DNA of 61,885 nt, from IMG/VR virus record IMGVR_UViG_3300032086_002884, positions 1-61,885 of that record; one strand, written 5' to 3'. Position 1 is the first letter of the stretch. Each line of letters begins with the position of its first letter. Below are positions 6,354 to 32,318 of the stretch, one piece after another. The position numbers were made by a program, and so were the translations under genes. This DNA is from a virus. The notes under the pieces are model-generated. The model was given only the letters and a program-made list of their open reading frames with translations, did no database searches and was not told where the DNA came from.

Positions 6354-6571
6354 TTGTATTTACTTCTTGCATAGTCTACAATTTGACCAGCAGTAAATGG
6401 TACAGTATTGCCTCCAAGATAATATTCCACACATAGCTTTTTGGCATCTTGAGTGATCTTTATGTTGCTATAAATATGTGTATATGCTGTTCTATATTCC
6501 ATCAGAATATACTTTTTTACATTTATAGTAAACTTATTTACTGCTTTTTGTAATTTAGGACTATCTCTCAT
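6350..6571 (-). CDS. hypothetical protein (73 aa)
   Basis: Basic, helical 73-aa protein. Four-base overlaps with both neighbours. It shows weak similarity of layout to the 77-aa protein upstream (lysine-rich helix, YDTD/YARSK end), so duplication is possible but not proven. Confidence 0.55.
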   Translation of the reverse strand: MRDSPKLQKAVNKFTINVKKYILMEYRTAYTHIYSNIKITQDAKKLCVEYYLGGNTVPFTAGQIVDYARSKYK

Positions 6572-6801
6572 GGGTTTAGCCTTAGCATAGCAATAATTTT
6601 ATTTGCAGTTTTGTCTGTGTCATAATTTCTATTGCGTGAATCTTCTAAAAGATATTTCACTCTGTCTTTATTTTTAGAAGTCTGTACTTTCTTCAGAGTG
6701 CTGTTGCCGTACTCTGTAGAAATATAATTAAAAACATTTTTATTAAAAGCATCAACCTTCGTCATCATTTTCTCCATATAATTTTTTCCAACAACTATCA
6801 C
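6568..6801 (-). CDS. hypothetical protein (77 aa)
   Basis: Basic helical protein. Its start region overlaps the end of the Cys-rich gene by 50 bases. A later ATG (MEKMMTK, 6777) would reduce this overlap and is a plausible alternative start. Confidence 0.5.
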   Translation of the reverse strand: MIVVGKNYMEKMMTKVDAFNKNVFNYISTEYGNSTLKKVQTSKNKDRVKYLLEDSRNRNYDTDKTANKIIAMLRLNP

Positions 6802-8642: not shown

Positions 8643-9938
8643 TTATGCAATAATTTCATGCTGAATATTTCCAAAAACATCTGTCAGCCTAAAATCCCTA
8701 CCACTATATCTATATGTTAATTTACTATGGTCAATACCCATTAAATGTAATATAGTAGCATGTAAATCGTGCATATCCATACTGTCTACTGCTTTATGCC
8801 CAAAGTCATCAGTAGAACCATGTCTCATACCACCTTTAACACCACCTCCTGCCATCCACATAGAGAATCCACCATTATTATGATCTCTACCTGTTGCTCC
8901 TTCTTTTATGCCGGGAGTTCTACCAAACTCACTTCCAAACAATATAATTGTATCTTCAAATAGTCCAGAATCTTTTAAGTCTTGGATCAAAGCAGCAATA
9001 GGTTTATCAATAGCTGTTGTATTCTTTTTTAAATTATCATTAATATTCTGGTGCATGTCCCAACCACCATGACCAATCTCTACAAATCTAACTCCTGCCT
9101 CACTAAATTTCTTAGCTAATAAACATTGTTTACCAAACTTAGCAGTAGCTTTATCATTGATACCATACTTCTGTAAAGTTTCTTGTGATTCTTTAGATAT
9201 ATCAACAGTATTAGGAACACTTGTTTGCATCCTAAAAGCTAACTCATAACTCTCAATCAATCCTTCTAGTCTACTATTTTCCGCACCGTCTTTCAGGTGC
9301 ATCTGATTAAAGTCTCTTAATAAATCTAAACCTTCTCGTTGTTTGTCTTTAGTTGTAGATGTATTTACAAGATTAGGTATAGCGCTTTTACTACCAGCAT
9401 TAATAGCAGTACCTTGATATACTGCCGGTAAGAATGAACTACCATAATTATCAGGCCCAATGTTAGCATCTATAGTTATAAATCCCGGCAACTCTTTATT
9501 CTCTGTACCTAATCCATACAATAACCAACTACCCATACTAGGTCTACTAAATTGAAAATTACCAGTATGCAATAAACTTCTAGCCTGATTATGATTACCT
9601 GTTTTACTCTTCATACCATTTAACAAACATAAACTATCTGCGTGTTTACGCAAGTGTGGGAAGTTCTCACTAATTTCTATACCACTTTTCCCTGCTGGAG
9701 TTAAAGGTACTGCTGGTTTTACAATCTTTCTACCTTTACTTACAGGATCATCTATACCTGCTTTTTCTACCATTAAAGGCTTATGATCAAAAGTATCAGT
9801 GTGAGTCATACCACCATTCATATACATGAATATAACTCTCTTATTACTTTTCATAGCCTCTTCTGCCATCAATCCTTTTAATGCCAACATACCAAAACCA
9901 AAACTACTGGTTTGTAATAAACTTCTTCTATTTAACAT
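8643..9938 (-). CDS. Tat-exported DUF1501 family protein (planctomycete type)
   Basis: 431 aa, the normal family length. The N-terminus has a twin-arginine signal (NRRSLL, then a hydrophobic stretch to about residue 25). The DUF1501 fold, related to the sulfatase/alkaline phosphatase superfamily, shows MNGGMTHTDTFDHKP, the GGWDMH motif, SEFGRTPG, GRDHN and a C-terminal DLHATILHLMGIDH with the tail RDFRLTDVFG. In Planctomycetes these genes stand in large numbers directly after PSCyt1-DUF1549-DUF1553 genes, exactly as here (11-base overlap). The substrate is unknown. Nothing is truncated, so it looks functional. It is most likely acquired from a host and kept as an auxiliary gene. Confidence 0.93.
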   Translation of the reverse strand: MLNRRSLLQTSSFGFGMLALKGLMAEEAMKSNKRVIFMYMNGGMTHTDTFDHKPLMVEKAGIDDPVSKGRKIVKPAVPLTPAGKSGIEISENFPHLRKHADSLCLLNGMKSKTGNHNQARSLLHTGNFQFSRPSMGSWLLYGLGTENKELPGFITIDANIGPDNYGSSFLPAVYQGTAINAGSKSAIPNLVNTSTTKDKQREGLDLLRDFNQMHLKDGAENSRLEGLIESYELAFRMQTSVPNTVDISKESQETLQKYGINDKATAKFGKQCLLAKKFSEAGVRFVEIGHGGWDMHQNINDNLKKNTTAIDKPIAALIQDLKDSGLFEDTIILFGSEFGRTPGIKEGATGRDHNNGGFSMWMAGGGVKGGMRHGSTDDFGHKAVDSMDMHDLHATILHLMGIDHSKLTYRYSGRDFRLTDVFGNIQHEIIA

Positions 9939-12294
9939 TACGAAATTCTCCTGTGCAGATTATGATTTGAATAAGTTTGGCAAGATCACTATCTTCTTTA
10001 ATAAAGTCTATAGATTTTTTACTCTCTTGCTCTGTAGGTGGACGACCTAAAAACTTTAGAAATATTTTATTTATGTTGTTTCGATATAATATATTGGGCA
10101 TAGTTTTACCCATCTTTTTATTATGATCAAGTAATACTTTTGCTTCTTCTTGTGCCAATGCTATGATCTTAGGATTGTTCATAAGAAATAACGCTTGAGT
10201 AGAAACTGTCGTAACACTTCTCTCAGCATTAAGCAGGCTATTGTCTGGTCTATCAAATATGTCCAGTACCTCAATCTTATTATCTCTTAATGATGGTATA
10301 TAAATTGATCTTGCTCTTGTCTCCCCAATATACTTTCTTAGTTCTTTGCTGGAGTTTTTTATACCCGTTTGAAAATCACTTATATTCTTATGCGACCCTT
10401 CTAGCTTACCTGAGACAAATAATAATGAGTCTCTAATTTGTTCAGCCTCTAATCTTTTCTCATTCATTCTCCAGAAATAAATATTGTCAGGATCAATCTC
10501 ATAATTATTTTTATCAAACTTACTACTACGCCTGTAAGCATTACTCATCACAATAGTTTTAATGAGTCTTTTATTTGATAACCTGCCCGTAATAAACTTA
10601 GTAGATAAATAGTTCATAAGTTTAAGATTAGTAGGTTCTCCACCAAGTATACCAAAATTATCAAAACTGTCCAGTATACCTTTACCAAACAAATGTCTCC
10701 ATACTCTATTCACATGAACTCTGTAAGTTAATGGATTAGTTTTATGTGTTATCCATTCTGCAAACTCATATCGTCCACTGGTATTATCAAAATTAAGATT
10801 AGGTCTATCACTAAATATCTCTGGTAATCTTCTGGGTACTTCATCGCCCAGATTATTTACCTCACCTCTAATTGCTAATTTAACTTCTGTCATCTTTTCT
10901 TTATCTTTGACAGACATTATAGGCTCTAAATGTTCTAGGTATTTTAAATACTCCTCTGATAACTTAGCCTTGGCTTCATCTAGTTTCTTTTGTCTCCTAC
11001 CCAATTCTTTGTTTAATTGATCCTCTGTTGCTCTTTTGTTCCATGTTTTAATAGACTCTATCTGTGTCTCTAGGTTTTTAATATCACACAGCAGAAACCA
11101 CTCCTGTATCTTTCTCTTCTTATATAAATCTTCTGTCTCTTCTGTGAGTAGATAGTCATAGTCTCCCAAATATCCTGTGTTATTATTACCCCTGTAAAGA
11201 CCATCTAAATTTTCAGTATTATTAAACACACCAGCAACACCATAATAATCCTGCTGAGAAAATGGATCGAACTTATGATCGTGGCATCTTGCACAACTTA
11301 AAGTCATGCCAAGAAAACCTCTAGTAATAGCATCTATCTGATCATCGTTACGATCTGCTTCAAACTGTTTAATCTGTGCCTGTATATTCTTTGTCCCTAT
11401 GGTTAAAAAGCCTGTAGCTATCCTGTTGTTGTTATATTCTTCATAACTTTTATGTGGCAGTAGATCGCCAGCTATTTGTTCTTTAATAAATTGGTCGTAT
11501 GGCTTATCGTTATTAAAACTATCTATAACATAATCTCTATATCTCCAAGCATACGGACTAACTAAATTTCTATCTTGTCCAGATGATTCTGCATACCTTG
11601 ATACATCAAGCCAATGTCGTCCCCATTTTTCTCCAAACCCATCATCCTGCAATAAACTATCAACTAACTTCTCATACTTATCTTCTGATGTATCGTCCGT
11701 ATAGCCTTTTATCTGCTCAATACTTGGTGGTAGACCAATAAGATCAAAATATAATCTACGAACAATAGTATAATCATCTGCTATCTTTACTGGTTTTAGC
11801 TTGTGCTTTTCTATCTCTAAATTTAAGACGGCATCTATCTCTGTGCCATCATCATATTTAGCTACAGGAGGTCTAGTTACCTTCTTAAATGCCCAAAAAT
11901 TTCTAGCCTGTCTTAATTCTACTGCCCTATTCTCATGCTTATATCTTGGGTCAGGCATACCCATTTTAATCCATTGTCTAAAATTATTGACAACTTCTTC
12001 ACTCAAAGGATTATCTGGAGGCATATCACCAGACTCAATATAGTCTAGTAATAAACTCTTATCTATCTTGCCGGGAACAACTGATGGGCCAGAATCGCCA
12101 CCGTTTAATATACCTTGCCTAGTATCTAAAGACAATCCACCCTTTACATCCTTAGAATTAGAAGAATGACATGAATAACATTGGGTAGTTAAAACAGGTT
12201 TAATATTCTCTTCAAAGAATTTGATACCAGTTTCCTGCCCTACTGCAATATTAGAATAAATAATAAAACTAATTAGAAGTATTTTTTTTAACAT
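9928..12294 (-). CDS. planctomycete cytochrome PSCyt1-DUF1549-DUF1553 protein
   Basis: 788 aa with a Sec signal peptide (residues 1-19). PSCyt1 domain: heme motif C39-Y-S-C42-H43 and downstream SGDMPPD, whose Met near residue 91 could be the axial ligand. DUF1549 (about 145-350) contains the family's second motif C334-A-R-C337-H-D-H-K-F-D-P. DUF1553 (about 505-780) has the WITHKTNPLTYRV and NRVWRHLFG motifs. A charged coiled segment (390-480) links them. This architecture is known from Planctomycetes and relatives, whose many paralogs are thought to work outside the cytoplasm, possibly with complex polysaccharides. All hallmark residues are kept. Heme attachment would need the host's cytochrome c maturation system. 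Confidence 0.93.
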   Translation of the reverse strand: MLKKILLISFIIYSNIAVGQETGIKFFEENIKPVLTTQCYSCHSSNSKDVKGGLSLDTRQGILNGGDSGPSVVPGKIDKSLLLDYIESGDMPPDNPLSEEVVNNFRQWIKMGMPDPRYKHENRAVELRQARNFWAFKKVTRPPVAKYDDGTEIDAVLNLEIEKHKLKPVKIADDYTIVRRLYFDLIGLPPSIEQIKGYTDDTSEDKYEKLVDSLLQDDGFGEKWGRHWLDVSRYAESSGQDRNLVSPYAWRYRDYVIDSFNNDKPYDQFIKEQIAGDLLPHKSYEEYNNNRIATGFLTIGTKNIQAQIKQFEADRNDDQIDAITRGFLGMTLSCARCHDHKFDPFSQQDYYGVAGVFNNTENLDGLYRGNNNTGYLGDYDYLLTEETEDLYKKRKIQEWFLLCDIKNLETQIESIKTWNKRATEDQLNKELGRRQKKLDEAKAKLSEEYLKYLEHLEPIMSVKDKEKMTEVKLAIRGEVNNLGDEVPRRLPEIFSDRPNLNFDNTSGRYEFAEWITHKTNPLTYRVHVNRVWRHLFGKGILDSFDNFGILGGEPTNLKLMNYLSTKFITGRLSNKRLIKTIVMSNAYRRSSKFDKNNYEIDPDNIYFWRMNEKRLEAEQIRDSLLFVSGKLEGSHKNISDFQTGIKNSSKELRKYIGETRARSIYIPSLRDNKIEVLDIFDRPDNSLLNAERSVTTVSTQALFLMNNPKIIALAQEEAKVLLDHNKKMGKTMPNILYRNNINKIFLKFLGRPPTEQESKKSIDFIKEDSDLAKLIQIIICTGEFRNVK

Positions 12295-17763: not shown

Positions 17764-17835
17764 TAACTCCGGCGAGAATCGAACTCACATTTGAGGTTTA
17801 GAAGACCACTGTTCTATCCGTTGAACTACGGAGCC
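17764..17835 (-). tRNA. tRNA-Arg(UCU)
   Basis: A 72-nt cloverleaf: acceptor GGCTCCG with CGGAGTT (two terminal G-U pairs), D stem GTTC/GAAC, anticodon loop CTTCTAA (anticodon UCU), variable loop of four bases, T arm GTGAG-TTCGATT-CTCGC, discriminator A, no encoded CCA. One mismatch in the anticodon stem. UCU reads AGA, the dominant arginine codon in the right-arm genes, so it probably supplements the host pool. Confidence 0.93.
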
Positions 17836-18235: not shown

Positions 18236-18264
18236 ATTGTACCATATATATCGTCATGCGTCAA
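18236..18264 (-). promoter_or_regulatory. leftward promoter with GNCGATA motif
   Basis: -35 TTGACG (18259-18264), 17-bp spacer with GACGATA, -10 TACAAT (18236-18241). Confidence 0.8.
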
Positions 18265-18686
18265 GCATATTCTTTACATTTTCTCATCCTTCCTTCCTCT
18301 AAGATATAAACACTATTACCGTTAGTGATCAGAGAAGCATAATCAGTTCCATCCCAATTGAATTCTCCATCATCACCTCCACGACGCCAGTGTATATCCT
18401 TGATAGGATTATACGATAATTTGTCCATATATTTAGTAGATATGCTATCAGCCTCATACAAGTCAAAGTTATCACACTCAACCCATCCACACACATCTTT
18501 CTTACCTGCACCATGCACCCTCCTTGCTGCATTAGTTTTATTGATAAGTTTAGCATCATACATTTCTATCTGATACTTTTGTGGGTCAACGTACTTGACT
18601 GTACCATCGTATGCTTTGATTTGCCAGTGCATGTAGTTCTGACCACGTTGTAGATGAAATCGTATTTTGTATTCAAAACCAATCAT
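18261..18686 (-). CDS. hypothetical protein (141 aa)
   Basis: Start at ATG 18686 (MIGFEYKIRFHL) with AAGGAG seven bases upstream. Beta-rich, aromatic residues throughout, HWRRGGDDGEFNWDG near residue 100. Its stop overlaps the -35 of the next promoter. Unrecognised. Confidence 0.65.
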   Translation of the reverse strand: MIGFEYKIRFHLQRGQNYMHWQIKAYDGTVKYVDPQKYQIEMYDAKLINKTNAARRVHGAGKKDVCGWVECDNFDLYEADSISTKYMDKLSYNPIKDIHWRRGGDDGEFNWDGTDYASLITNGNSVYILEEGRMRKCKEYA

Positions 18687-18704
18687 AATTATCTCCTTTC
18701 CCCT

Positions 18705-18733
18705 AGTATACATTATCGACATTCTATTGTCAA
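18705..18733 (-). promoter_or_regulatory. leftward promoter with shifted CGATA motif
   Basis: -35 TTGACA (18728-18733), 17-bp spacer, -10 TATACT (18705-18710). GTCGATA sits only three bases before the -10, not seven as elsewhere. Confidence 0.8.
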
Positions 18734-18743
18734 GACTTTAATA

Positions 18744-18795
18744 TTTAGCTGACTGTAACTCATTTACAACTATCTTACTACATTAGGTGCGACAT
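18744..18795 (-). repeat. intergenic repeat E5
   Basis: Divergent E-family copy (TTAGCTGACTG ... ATTAGGTGCGACA). It ends the structured RNA region and lies 11 bases upstream of the next promoter in transcript order. Confidence 0.55.
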
Positions 18796-19120
18796 TACCC
18801 AGCGTCCATACGATGTTGGTCCAATCTTCCCCGGCCTAGCCGGAAGGTATGGAAGTCGTTTTCAGACTATGACCGAAGCCATCACTGGGTCTACTCGCCG
18901 CTTTGAGGTTTGTAATAGGACTTAGGTATTACCCGTACTAGGGCAACACTTTCCCGTATAGCTATCAGGCTGCCAAGGTGCTATACGCCTTATCCGTCTT
19001 AATGTATTGGCAGTGGACACTGGGACTTGCACCCAGTAGGTCGTCTTTACATCGTCAGGATACCGAATTATCCCAGCCAAATGTACGTCCGGTAACGCCT
19101 AAGCAACTCTGCTCGCCACT
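18781..19120 (-). ncRNA. candidate structured non-coding RNA with pseudoknot
   Basis: About 340 bases, GC-richer than the flanks, no open frame, starting just after the promoter at 19126-19154. Minus-strand helices: CTGCCAA (19013-19007) with TTGGCAG (18976-18970), interleaved with CGTATAGC (18987-18980) and GCTATACG (18962-18955), an H-type pseudoknot; ACTGGG-TGCAAGT-CCCAGT (19037-19019), a T-loop-like hairpin; GGAT/ATCC (19073-19058); a stem capped by C(TTCG)G (18882-18869), the stable UUCG tetraloop in this orientation; CTTCCGGC with GCC..GGAAG (18846-18826). It does not match tmRNA, RNase P RNA or a complete tRNA. Function unknown. Confidence 0.65.
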
Positions 19121-19125
19121 ATATC

Positions 19126-19154
19126 ATTCTACTATATAATATCGTCATTGTCAA
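19126..19154 (-). promoter_or_regulatory. leftward promoter of the structured RNA
   Basis: -35 TTGACA (19149-19154), 17-bp spacer with GACGATA, -10 TAGAAT (19126-19131). The only thing downstream before the next promoter is the structured RNA candidate. Confidence 0.8.
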
Positions 19155-19237: not shown

Positions 19238-19495
19238 TCATTCCTCAAAATCTTTATCACGAGATTCGTCCAGGATGTGATAGCATTCCTCTAGTATATC
19301 CTCCGTTTCCCATACTGTCGTCTTCTTATCTGCACTAATATAGTCTTTACAACCACGTTCGTCTACATATACATATTCGTCTATCAGTTCACTTCCTGTC
19401 ATATAATCTAAAAACATTTTTATAACTATTTCTTTTTTGTTTAGATTCGTATCAAATACTTTCCTAAAATTACCAGATGCTATGTAGACCTTCAT
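19238..19495 (-). CDS. hypothetical protein (85 aa)
   Basis: 85 aa, acidic, starting MKVYIASGNFRKVFDT. Four-base overlap with the Gp88-like gene (ATGA), so the two are co-translated. Unrecognised. Confidence 0.65.
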   Translation of the reverse strand: MKVYIASGNFRKVFDTNLNKKEIVIKMFLDYMTGSELIDEYVYVDERGCKDYISADKKTTVWETEDILEECYHILDESRDKDFEE

Positions 19496-27606: not shown

Positions 27607-28051
27607 GATCATTATAGATACTAGGGAACAAAAACCTTGGGAGTTTCCTGGTCACACCACAGCGGTACAAAAACTAGACACAGGAGATTATTCTGTAGAG
27701 GGTCTAGAAGATATACTTTGTATTGAAAGGAAGCAGAACACATCAGAGTTTGCCAAAAACATTGTGGAGAAAAGGTATGACGATTGGACAGAGAGAATGT
27801 CAAAGTTTAAATATAAGTTCCTTTTGTTAGAATTTTCTCTATCAGACGTTTATCTGTTTCCTAAAAACTCTGGGATCCCAAAACATATGCTGAACAAAAC
27901 AAGAATAAGTTCTAAGTTTTTAATTAAGAAACTTATAGAGTTATCTATGTTACATGATATTCATGTACTGTTTTGTGAATCCTCTTATACAGCATCTAAG
28001 TTTGCTGAAGCAATTATGTACAAGGTTTATTCCAATGAACGAGAACAATAG
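27593..28051 (+). CDS. ERCC4-type nuclease
   Basis: 152 aa. Catalytic pattern of XPF/ERCC4 nucleases: DTREQKPW (residues 8-15), DTGDYSVEG (29-37), IERKQNTSEF (about 45-54). It is the nuclease domain alone, without the HhH domain of XPF. It could cut branched DNA or act in replication and packaging. Overlaps the terminase start by 17 bases. Confidence 0.85.
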   Translation: MDQLKIIIDTREQKPWEFPGHTTAVQKLDTGDYSVEGLEDILCIERKQNTSEFAKNIVEKRYDDWTERMSKFKYKFLLLEFSLSDVYLFPKNSGIPKHMLNKTRISSKFLIKKLIELSMLHDIHVLFCESSYTASKFAEAIMYKVYSNEREQ

Positions 28052-30068
28052 TTTAGAAGATGCTTGGTTGGGTTTAGGTGACCTATCTAAAATAGCAACA
28101 CCAAACAATCCTATGATTGGTAGATCTAAACATGATATAGAACATCCAGACTACCATTTACTAAAAATATTAAGAGACCCAAAGTATCTTGCTACCACCT
28201 GTAAACTTCTATTCAACATAGAGCTGCATCCGATACAGGTGGCAATACTGCAAGAGTTCTGGGTACGACCCTTTCCAATGTTCATAGCAAGTCGTGGTTT
28301 TGGAAAGTCTTTTCTTATGAGTCTTTATTGTATACTGAAATGCACCTTTGTGCCTGGAACCAAGATTGTTGTTGTGGGTGCTGCCTTTAGACAGAGTAAG
28401 ATTCTTTTTGAATATATGGAAACTATTTGGCGCAATAGTCCTGTCTTAAGAAGTATTTTTAGTGGTAATGACGACGGACCCAGAAAAGATGTTGATCGAT
28501 GTACACTCCGATTAGGCGACAGCTGGACTATTGCTATTCCTATGGGAGATGGTTCTAAAATCAGAGGTCTAAGGGCACATATTATTATTGCTGATGAATT
28601 TGCTTCCATATCTCCTGAAATATATGAAACTGTTGTTGCTGGTTTTGCTGCTGTTAGTGCAAGCCCTATTGAGAATGTAAAAGAAGAAGCTAAAAAACAG
28701 GCTATGAAAGATCTTGGTGTTTGGACAGATGAATTAGAAGTACTTACTAAGAAAATGGGAAATCAAGCTATAATAAGTGGAACCGCTGACTATGCTTTCA
28801 AACACTTTGCACAATACTGGAAAAGATATAAAGGTATTATAGAAAGTAAGGGTGACCACAATAAACTTCAGGATGTTTTTGGTGAAGAAGTTCCAGATAA
28901 TTTTAATTGGAGAGATTATAGCATTATTCGTATCCCTTATGAGTTAATACCCAAAGGGTTTATGGACGACAAACAAATTAGTAGAGCAAAAGCGACTATT
29001 CATACTGGCACATATCAAATGGAGTATGCAGCAGTATTTGTAGAGGATAGCGAGGGGTTCTTTAAGAGAAGTCTAGTTGAAAGCTGTGTTGTTGATGATA
29101 AAAAGTCTATCGTAGATCAAGATGAGAATCTTATTATATTTGATCCTGTAACCAAAGGAAATCCTGGAGCAAAATATGTTTACGGTATTGACCCTGCTAG
29201 TGAAAAAGATAATTTTTGTATTGTTGTTATTGAACTAAGGCCAAATCATAATAGAGTTGTATATGTATGGACTACGAACAGAACTAACTTTAAAGATAGA
29301 CAAAAAACAGGTCTAGTATCTGAGCATGATTTTTACGGTTTCTGCGCAAGAAAAATAAGAGACTTAATGAAAGTGTTTCCAGCAGAAAGGATAGGTATAG
29401 ATGCTCAAGGAGGAGGTATTGCTATAGAAGAGGCTTTACACGATCCTGTACGGTTACAGCCTGGAGAACACTTAATATGGCCACTTATAGATTATGATGG
29501 TAAAAGTAAAGAGACAGATGTTCAACAAGGATTACATATTTTAGAAATGGTACAGTTTGCTAATGCCAATTGGACAGCCCAGGCCAATCATGGTTTACGA
29601 AAAGACATGGAAGATAAAAGGTTGTTATTCCCAAGGTTTGACAATTTTTCTTTAGGTCTAGCGATGGAAAGAGAAAGTCAGAATATATTAGAGGGTGATC
29701 TTAATCCTATATATGATAATCTCAGTGAATGTATTTTAGAGATAGAGCAACTTAAAGATGAATTAACAACAATTGTCATGACGCAGACCAGTACTAGTGC
29801 TGGAGCTAGAGATAGATGGGATACTCCAGAAGTAAAGCTGCATGGGGGTAAAAAGGGCAGATTGAGGAAAGATAGATATAGCTCTTTAGTAATCGCCAAT
29901 ATGCTTGCACGACAAATGACAAATGTTCTCAAACCTCCTACCTATGATGTTATTGGTGGAAATGCCAGAAACCATAGAGGTAAAGATAGTGGAGATATGT
30001 ATAAAGGCCCAGAATGGTTTACTGGTCCAGCTAACGACGATATTTATACAGGTATTTACAGAGATTAG
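28035..30068 (+). CDS. terminase large subunit
   Basis: 677 aa from ATG 28035. The ATPase has Walker A ASRGFGKS (residues 85-92) and Walker B IIIADE (D187-E188); the RNase H-like nuclease has YGIDPAS (D386) and RIGIDAQGGG (D456), with a C-terminal DRYSSLVIAN. It pumps DNA into the prohead and cuts it. An earlier in-frame start at 27954 would lie inside the ERCC4 gene and is rejected. Confidence 0.95.
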   Translation: MNENNSLEDAWLGLGDLSKIATPNNPMIGRSKHDIEHPDYHLLKILRDPKYLATTCKLLFNIELHPIQVAILQEFWVRPFPMFIASRGFGKSFLMSLYCILKCTFVPGTKIVVVGAAFRQSKILFEYMETIWRNSPVLRSIFSGNDDGPRKDVDRCTLRLGDSWTIAIPMGDGSKIRGLRAHIIIADEFASISPEIYETVVAGFAAVSASPIENVKEEAKKQAMKDLGVWTDELEVLTKKMGNQAIISGTADYAFKHFAQYWKRYKGIIESKGDHNKLQDVFGEEVPDNFNWRDYSIIRIPYELIPKGFMDDKQISRAKATIHTGTYQMEYAAVFVEDSEGFFKRSLVESCVVDDKKSIVDQDENLIIFDPVTKGNPGAKYVYGIDPASEKDNFCIVVIELRPNHNRVVYVWTTNRTNFKDRQKTGLVSEHDFYGFCARKIRDLMKVFPAERIGIDAQGGGIAIEEALHDPVRLQPGEHLIWPLIDYDGKSKETDVQQGLHILEMVQFANANWTAQANHGLRKDMEDKRLLFPRFDNFSLGLAMERESQNILEGDLNPIYDNLSECILEIEQLKDELTTIVMTQTSTSAGARDRWDTPEVKLHGGKKGRLRKDRYSSLVIANMLARQMTNVLKPPTYDVIGGNARNHRGKDSGDMYKGPEWFTGPANDDIYTGIYRD

Positions 30069-30113: not shown

Positions 30114-32318
30114 ATGCCAAAAAAATATCCAAAAAGTGACGCTATTCAAAACGTAAGTCCCACACCTCCTGAAGAAGCATATATTTTCTATGGAGATGAT
30201 GAAGCTAGTAAAAATGAAGCTATGAAAGCTTCTGCTGGAGCATTAGATGAATATACTCTGATAGACGGATATAGTAATAAAGCTACTGCTCATTCTAGAT
30301 ATCGTACTGATTTTTCTAATTTAGACACAAACACATCAGGAAGACCAGGATTAACTCGTGGCGATTATGACTACTTTAGGCCAGATGAAGCAGTGCCTAG
30401 AAAAGTCAAAAATGTAATGTATAGAGCTGATGATATTTATCAGCGTGTAGGGTTGGTAAAAAATGTTGTAGACTTGATGGGAGATTTTGCTACTCAGGGG
30501 ATTAGGATTGTACACAGAAATAAAAGGGTGGAAAGGTTCTACAAAAGATGGTTTGAAAAATGTAATGGCAAAGATCGTAGCGAAAGATTTGTTAATAACC
30601 TTTATAAAACAGGCAATGTCGTTGTAGACAGACAAACAGGAAAGCTAACAACAAAAGCCACAGAAAAAATGTTTAAAGCTTTGGCTAAAGCTGATTTTGA
30701 CATTGGCCCAGAAGAAAAAGTTGAAAAGAGAGTTATTCCTTGGAAGTATACTTTTTTAAATCCCTTATATGTTGATGTGGCTGCTGGGCCTTTGTCATCT
30801 TTTGTGCAAGATAAGCGTTATGAGCTTGTCTTACCACCAAATTTGCGTAAGCTAATTAATGCTCCTAAGAACGATGCAGAAAAACAGGTTGTTGCACAGT
30901 TGCCAGACCAGATTATTGAAGCTGCTAAGTCAAAGATGAAATATCCATTAGATGCAAGCAGGACATCTGTATATCATTATAAAAAAGACGATTGGCAAAC
31001 TTGGGCATATCCTATGATATATGCAATCATGGATGATATTACAGTTATTGAAAAATTAAAGCTCGCTGATATGTCTGCATTAGATGGTGCTATTTCCAAT
31101 ATTAGAATATTTAAATTGGGTAATTTAGAACATAAGATTGCTCCTACAAAAGCAGCTACTTCTAAACTAGCACAAATTCTAGGAAACAATGTTGGTGGAG
31201 GTACAATGGATTTAGTTTGGGGTCCAGACATTGAATTGATTGAAAGTAAAACAAATGTACATCAATTTTTAGGAGAAGGTAAATATACCCCTCACTTAAA
31301 TGCTGTGTATGCTGGATTGGGTATTCCTCCTACATTAACAGGAACCTATGGTGCAGCTGGAACTACAAATAATTTTATTAGTTTAAAAACCTTAACACAA
31401 AGACTACAGTACGGCAGAGATGTTCTTATTAGGTTTTGGCAGCAAGAGATAGAGCTTGTTCAGAAAGCTATGGGTTTTAAATATCCTGCAAGGATAGAAT
31501 TTGATAGAATGGATCTCAGTAATGAAGAGGCTGAGAAGTCTTTATTGATACAGCTAGCAGATAGAAATATTGTTAGTGATGAGATGGTTCGATCTAGATT
31601 TGGTCTTGATCCAGATATGGAAAAGCTAAGAGTCAATCAAGAACATAAAGAACATAAGAGAAAAACCAGTCCTCCTAAAGTTAGTCCTTATCATGATGCT
31701 AATTTTGAAAATGCTATTAAGAAATTGGGTGTCCAGCTAGGTATGTTAACTCCTAGTGAGGTTGGGGTAGAATTAAATAATAAAGATTCCGATCAGCAAA
31801 ACTTACTTGAGCTTAAGGATAAGTTTGAGAAGCAGAAGCCTAAGAAGCCTGTTATTACAGAAAAAACCCCTGGTCAGCCAGGAGAAGGAAGACCTATGAA
31901 TTCAAAGGATGCAGAGAAAAGAAAAGAAAAAGAGTTTGCTCCACAAACAGGTGCAAGTTTATCTATTTGGGCTATAAATGCTCAAGAAGCTATATCTGAA
32001 ATTGTTAATCCTATTATGCTGGATTTTTATGGAAAGAAAAATCTTAGAAGCCTATCTCATCTTGAGGCCAGTGAGCTAGAAGAGGTTAAATCTAAGGTAT
32101 TATTTAATATTAAGCCATATTCGATTATAGATAGGGATGCTGTGGAGTTGGTGTTTAATACTATTAATACTCAAGCAAATTTAGAACTAATGGGCCATTA
32201 TATAGATTGGCAAAAATCTGTTCAGCAAGATCTTCCGCATACGATGTCTTTAGATGACCAAAAACAAGCAAAAGCATCTTTTTATTCCATGGTGTATACA
32301 ATTTTACACAAAACATAA
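30114..32318 (+). CDS. portal protein
   Basis: 734 aa, directly after the terminase. Central part typical of portals: DDIYQRVGLVKNVVDLM, VYHYKKDDWQTWAYPMIYAIMDDI, LGEGKYTPHLNAVYAGLGIPPTLTGTYGAAGTTNNFISLKTL, then a long helical region. A C-terminal extension of about 190 residues (after a Lys/Pro-rich linker near 530-570) is unusual and might be an extra domain. It forms the 12-fold ring for DNA passage. Leaderless or poorly led start (see promoter). Confidence 0.88.
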   Translation: MPKKYPKSDAIQNVSPTPPEEAYIFYGDDEASKNEAMKASAGALDEYTLIDGYSNKATAHSRYRTDFSNLDTNTSGRPGLTRGDYDYFRPDEAVPRKVKNVMYRADDIYQRVGLVKNVVDLMGDFATQGIRIVHRNKRVERFYKRWFEKCNGKDRSERFVNNLYKTGNVVVDRQTGKLTTKATEKMFKALAKADFDIGPEEKVEKRVIPWKYTFLNPLYVDVAAGPLSSFVQDKRYELVLPPNLRKLINAPKNDAEKQVVAQLPDQIIEAAKSKMKYPLDASRTSVYHYKKDDWQTWAYPMIYAIMDDITVIEKLKLADMSALDGAISNIRIFKLGNLEHKIAPTKAATSKLAQILGNNVGGGTMDLVWGPDIELIESKTNVHQFLGEGKYTPHLNAVYAGLGIPPTLTGTYGAAGTTNNFISLKTLTQRLQYGRDVLIRFWQQEIELVQKAMGFKYPARIEFDRMDLSNEEAEKSLLIQLADRNIVSDEMVRSRFGLDPDMEKLRVNQEHKEHKRKTSPPKVSPYHDANFENAIKKLGVQLGMLTPSEVGVELNNKDSDQQNLLELKDKFEKQKPKKPVITEKTPGQPGEGRPMNSKDAEKRKEKEFAPQTGASLSIWAINAQEAISEIVNPIMLDFYGKKNLRSLSHLEASELEEVKSKVLFNIKPYSIIDRDAVELVFNTINTQANLELMGHYIDWQKSVQQDLPHTMSLDDQKQAKASFYSMVYTILHKT

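Follow-up and report, generated by a model that had tools for sequence, protein, structure and literature searches.

A multidomain structured RNA with a tRNA-like, pseudoknot-containing domain in a family of environmental phages

An intergenic locus of an IMG/VR virus record (IMGVR_UViG_3300032086_002884; all 61,885 nucleotides were analyzed and are referred to here as the window) is almost certainly a real structured RNA gene. On comparative sequence evidence, the locus encodes a noncoding RNA on its own, in a family of large environmental phages, and its predicted product is a chain of separable domains that can be reordered. The first of them in the window, D1, very probably adopts a tRNA-like fold, and paired positions of D1 and of the two other domains, D2 and D3, change with compensation among the relatives. 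The features of the RNA are listed in Table 1.

Table 1. Features of the structured RNA and its promoter (window coordinates).
Feature	Position	Strand	Remarks
Promoter TTGACA-N17-TAGAAT	19126..19154	-	5 nt before first D1 base
D1, tRNA-like domain	19012..19120	-	40 pairs, 27 changed on both sides, 12 distinct sequences
D1 acceptor stem	19120-19116 with 19016-19012, plus 2 bp across bulge	-	7 bp in total
D1 D-type hairpin	19113-19102	-	ANAG present
D1 stem UAGGCGUU/GACG-A-CCUA	19101-19094 with 19045-19037	-	leads to pseudoknot
D1 pseudoknot	19048..19093	-	at anticodon-arm position; both-sided changes within the family at 15 of the 16 pairs
Pseudoknot helix ACCGGA/UUCGGU	19093-19088 with 19067-19062	-	7 bp if outer U-A counted
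Pseudoknot helices UACAU/AUGUA and GGGAU/AUCCU	19085-19081 with 19052-19048; 19074-19070 with 19061-19057	-	interleaved with ACCGGA/UUCGGU
D1 T-arm CUGGG-UGCAAGU-CCCAG	19036-19020	-	5 bp, 7-nt loop
Tail GCCA and linker AUACA	19003..19011	-	after acceptor stem; R-C-C invariant (12/12)
D2	18918..18995	-	99% paired cells; both-sided changes at 8 pairs
D2 closing stem GGA/UCC + GG/CC; 8-bp hairpin CGUAUAGC/GCUAUACG; hairpin with CCC-UAGUAC-GGG	within 18918..18995	-	
D3 (optional)	18798..18889	-	97% paired cells; both-sided changes at 8 pairs
D3 closing stem CCCAGUG/CGCUGGG, UUCG hairpin, second hairpin	within 18798..18889	-	
D3 stem UCCAUAC/GUAUGGA	within 18798..18889	-	bears two inner hairpins
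3' hairpin site of several homologs	18768..18790	-	weak or lost in window

Location, Promoter and Reading Strand

Together with its promoter, the structured segment occupies positions 19154-18798 of the minus strand, between a gene of 85 aa (19238-19495) and a gene of 153 aa (18261-18722). A previous reading of the sequence alone had described the stretch as gene-free and richer in GC than its surroundings, and this was borne out: GC is about 0.45-0.51 in the RNA core vs. about 0.35-0.37 in both flanks, all overlapping ORFs have at most 53 aa, and comparison of the frames at the same place in the homologs revealed no conserved reading frame.

The promoter postulated in that reading is also present. 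The structured segment ends near 18798, and the next promoter lies at 18733. Because only 5 nt separate the promoter from D1, transcription is expected to start at or beside the acceptor stem. The promoter-led homologs are organized in the same way: all 11 contain TTGACA, so that no TTGACG-type variants were needed, with a spacing of 16-17 nt and a distance of 5 or 7 nt between the -10 element and D1. The TTGACA-type promoter set has 28 matches in the window vs. about 8 expected, many of them with internal CGAT, and suggests that the RNA may be expressed early by the host RNA polymerase.

The direction of reading proposed from the promoter was confirmed independently by the G-U pairs. On the minus strand the D1 pairs comprise 410 Watson-Crick, 34 G-U and 36 unpaired cells, vs. 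only 5 G-U and 65 unpaired cells on the opposite strand; this excess on one strand indicates that the RNA is read from the minus strand of the window.

It should be mentioned that strong promoters of the form TTGACA-16/17-TATAMT occur along the minus strand (e.g., at 2216, 3594, 4900, 8140, 17318, 18733, 19154, 20330 and 22351). Many members of this battery have CGAT in or near the spacer and are followed by small genes on the same strand, an arrangement resembling an early-gene set.

Distribution of the RNA

The RNA had been thought to be an orphan. This did not hold: the D1 covariance model (R1) matches 15 IMG/VR contigs, the window included, and the D2 model (R2) matches the same 15 together with a truncated contig, L172. 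The relatives were gathered via the neighboring GP88 gene and DNA patterns, and after merging of identical RNAs (L003/L004, L014/L023, L028/L030) 12 distinct D1 sequences were left. Other matches to loose patterns (L016, L017, L022, L024-L026, and most of L129-L152 and L165-L173) were discarded as chance matches or ordinary tRNAs.

D1 was absent from all 48 records of TerL relatives of the window, and no match to D2 was found in the 27 of them searched for it; the RNA is therefore limited to a narrow group or has diverged past the models. The contig of the closest TerL relative, with an identical TerL, begins within the GP88 gene, so its RNA site lies off the contig. GenBank phages and plasmids gave no meaningful match to the RNA, and the D2 pattern found three chance matches only in bacterial and archaeal species genomes.

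The TerL gene of the window (27954-30068) has at least 71% identity in 80 relatives among the matches listed, with at least 599 contigs matched. No GenBank phage has a match to the protein encoded at 30114-32318, which together with TerL points to a large uncultured phage lineage. Two adjacent genes on the minus strand (8643-12294) may hint at the host: their products are of the DUF1501 and PSCyt1/PSCyt2/PSD1 types, which are found chiefly in Planctomycetes, and Pfam calls PSCyt1 "Planctomycete cytochrome C".

Structure of the tRNA-Like Domain

With the pseudoknot included, 92.5% of the D1 cells over the 12 sequences are paired vs. 31-44% in slid controls, and the covariation score is 0.67 vs. 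0.07-0.14. The interleaved minus-strand pseudoknot seen in the sequence-only reading is fully supported, since all three helices covary across the 12 distinct sequences, with both-sided changes in five of six pairs of ACCGGA/UUCGGU and in five of five pairs of both UACAU/AUGUA and GGGAU/AUCCU. Covariation had been set beforehand as the test that could refute the structure, and in D1, D2 and D3 alike changes at paired positions are compensated. The folding energy is not significant (z of -1.05 on the minus and -1.36 on the plus strand); being unremarkable on its own, it leaves covariation to carry the case.

The hairpin originally described as T-loop-like is now recognized as the T-arm of a complete tRNA-like domain. 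Comparison of the distinct D1 sequences revealed that: (i) a 5-bp T-arm with a UGCRANY loop is present in 12 of 12, the loop being UGCAAGU, with UGCGAAC in one sequence; (ii) G55-C56 of the T-loop and ANAG of the D-type hairpin are found in every sequence; (iii) at the third position of the acceptor stem 11 have U-A and one has U-G; and (iv) the fourth tail base after R-C-C is A or G, with G in half of the sequences. Aminoacylation of D1 is doubtful because of the bulged acceptor stem and the frequent G at this fourth position.

In canonical tRNAs, residue 55 is contacted by G18, and C56 is paired with G19 (PMC4810234). Among the tRNAs called in the fetched contigs, which were selected partly by T-arm and not by D-loop, 12 of the 13 with G55 carry AG and lack GG in the D-loop, and all 39 with T55 carry GG there. 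As G55 goes with AG in phage tRNAs, D1, which combines the two, has a matched alternative elbow, and we infer that its D-loop and T-loop would dock. Phage tRNAs with the G55/AG elbow occur in L133, L137, L147 and other contigs.

The R1 model gave weak matches to real tRNAs in tRNA-rich phage contigs and picked no tRNAs in the three cellular genomes tried. Since cellular tRNAs are missed by the model, the likeness of D1 to tRNA is anatomical; kinship is not proven, and we do not claim that D1 is derived from tRNA.

Other Domains and Their Order

D3 is the weakest-supported domain, because its both-sided changes come mostly from the window and L172; D3 of L021 was compared by eye only. The UUCG-capped stem to which the initial reading drew attention, AUGGC(UUCG)GUCAU, is present in the window. 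It is window-specific, as relatives have other hairpins at this place. The long hairpin of that reading is likewise present in the window RNA. D3 is missing from L028, L029, L030, L138, L139 and L144.

Promoter-led copies have either the order D1-D2-D3 or D1-D2 followed by the 3' hairpin. A different order, D2-D3-D1, was found in L014 and L023, where the RNA directly follows the stop codon of a DUF7249 gene and D1 has no promoter; L172 starts as these two do, and its contig stops just past D3. The modules are linked by short unpaired ACAAUACA-like linkers, and a short linker of the AAUACA type connects D1 to D2. Each of the 15 contigs with D1 also carries D2, placed either before or after it. 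As both are present wherever the contig is long enough, they probably cooperate, and their order seems unimportant.

Additional modules were found in some relatives. In L028 and L030 a second module lies between D1 and D2; energy-only folding turns it into a cloverleaf whose acceptor stem has 7 bp, whose T-arm carries the loop UGCAACU and whose tail is GCCG. In L028 this second tRNA-like cloverleaf, a 150-nt structure with a very long central arm that is also found in L030, is located on the minus strand at about 6410-6577. Behind D2-D3-D1 of L014 (minus strand, about 9840-9980) there is one more module, a long hairpin rich in GC, as well as two strong hairpins ahead of the GP88 gene.

Comparison with Known RNA Classes

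Rfam 15 (4227 families) contains no match at gathering scores to the window element or its homologs, and up to E = 10 only chance matches to the element itself were obtained. RNase P RNA, 6S RNA, SRP RNA, known riboswitches and introns were rejected, having no Rfam match. No report of this RNA was found in the open-licence literature searched. By these comparisons the RNA is predicted to lie outside tRNA, tmRNA, GOLLD/ROOL and all other Rfam classes, in line with the view first taken of it. Its nearest working likeness is the head of tmRNA or a viral tRNA-like structure.

D1 resembles tRNA (RF00005), especially phage tRNAs with a UGCAAGU T-loop, in its 7-bp acceptor stem, D-type hairpin and T-arm of 5 bp with a 7-nt loop, and it shares with phage tRNAs the alternative elbow (G55 with AG). 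The R-C-C following its acceptor stem is shared as well and may correspond to the beginning of the unpaired N-C-C-A of tRNA. It differs from tRNA in having a pseudoknot in place of the anticodon arm and a bulged acceptor stem, and it is not seen by ARAGORN or the Rfam tRNA model. An ordinary tRNA was therefore rejected as an explanation of D1: the only tRNA called in the window by ARAGORN and Rfam is a tRNA-Arg (17764-17835 in Rfam), which is also the sole Rfam match in the window.

Like the tRNA-like domain of tmRNA, D1 has a head in whose anticodon-arm position a stem runs into a pseudoknot. In contrast to tmRNA, its D hairpin is paired, and it has U3-A70 and not G3-U70, the pair known for alanine charging. 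Neither a match to the tmRNA model nor a frame for a degradation tag was found, and tmRNA was rejected.

Viral tRNA-like structures mimic the elbow, have pseudoknots elsewhere and hijack tRNA-binding factors (PMC4810234). Similarly to the tRNA-like structure of turnip yellow mosaic virus, D1 combines elbow mimicry with a pseudoknot (PMC4810234). However, the plant-virus structures form the 3' ends of RNA-virus genomes and elsewhere differ in topology, whereas D1 stands at the start of or inside a DNA-phage transcript unit with other domains attached, and its pseudoknot takes the place of the anticodon arm.

Phage T4 produces two small stable RNAs of unknown function, C and D, alongside its tRNAs. 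They may be comparable to the RNA described here; the window RNA has no blastn similarity to any GenBank phage.

Possible Function of the RNA

The explanation that we favor is that D1 engages the tRNA-handling machinery and that the RNA is an early-expressed, non-decoding tRNA mimic; in our judgment it could equally prove right or wrong. According to this model, the host-type promoter would start transcription at the 5' end of D1, and the acceptor stem, the R-C-C tail and the docked elbow would let tRNA factors handle the domain. As the pseudoknot replaces the anticodon arm, D1 could be handled as a tRNA without decoding. It would thus recruit or occupy machinery that recognizes the tRNA elbow and acceptor (RNase P, RNase Z, the CCA-adding enzyme, EF-Tu or the ribosome), and D2 (and D3) would provide a second activity. 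More tentatively, the RNA may represent a new class of DNA-phage RNA machine in which permutable modules accompany an early, non-decoding tRNA mimic that acts on the tRNA or translation machinery of the host, e.g., as a decoy or in counter-defence.

Alternatively, D1 could be mainly a processing signal by which tRNA-maturation enzymes set the ends of D2(-D3), the functional RNA, as tRNA-like elements do for some long noncoding RNAs. In L014 and L023 the RNA has no promoter of its own and follows a stop codon, so it must be freed from mRNA; the short unpaired linkers fit this role, and either order of D1 and D2 would work. However, where a promoter precedes D1, transcription itself defines the 5' end of the domain and makes a 5' cut unnecessary, and the conserved pseudoknot within D1 would be superfluous for processing. 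We regard this alternative as rather unlikely.

GOLLD and ROOL, phage RNAs with no known function, form nanocages and often lie close to tRNA islands (PMC12286853). The RNA studied here is likewise large, structured, phage-encoded and multi-domain, contains a pseudoknot and lies about 1.2 kb from a tRNA gene; its domains might accordingly form a homo-oligomer or cage, as in self-assembling ornate RNAs of this type. Such an explanation is improbable, given that the Rfam covariance models of GOLLD, ROOL and OLE have no match, that the RNA is about half as long (about 330 nt vs. 659 and >800), and that a cage is hardly compatible with domains that are optional, lost or permuted.

The intergenic site could also point to a leader or 3' UTR element regulating a neighboring gene in cis. 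All 13 contigs tested have a GP88 or DUF7227-family gene within about 1 kb of the RNA, and eight of the 13 were found by the RNA pattern, without use of this gene in selection. However, this gene may be upstream, downstream or divergent (in L021 it is on the opposite strand), and such variation argues against simple cis-regulation; moreover, the gene downstream of the RNA varies by contig and usually has its own promoter. We consider a cis element very improbable. The GP88 protein was dropped as a pointer to RNA function, as it gave no usable fold match: its predicted model, of middling confidence (pLDDT 69), had only insignificant, mostly TIM-barrel-like fold matches in PDB and no PDB sequence match. 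In L006 (6001-6762) the GP88 reading frame contains stops, unlike in relatives, due to a frameshift or assembly error.

Finally, a chance appearance of structure in a conserved coding or DNA element would fit the insignificant folding energy. It is hardly conceivable, since the covariation greatly exceeds that of shuffled and slid controls, the G-U pairs mark one strand only, and no ORF is conserved.

What the tRNAs and large structured RNAs of large phages do is mostly unknown. The family described here offers a recognizable handle on them: its tRNA-like domain cannot decode, covariation proves the pseudoknot, and the naturally permuted copies reveal which parts are independent modules. The D1 and D2 models can be used to find further members. 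If the predictions of tRNA mimicry hold, this strategy of plant RNA viruses would have a close parallel in DNA phages.
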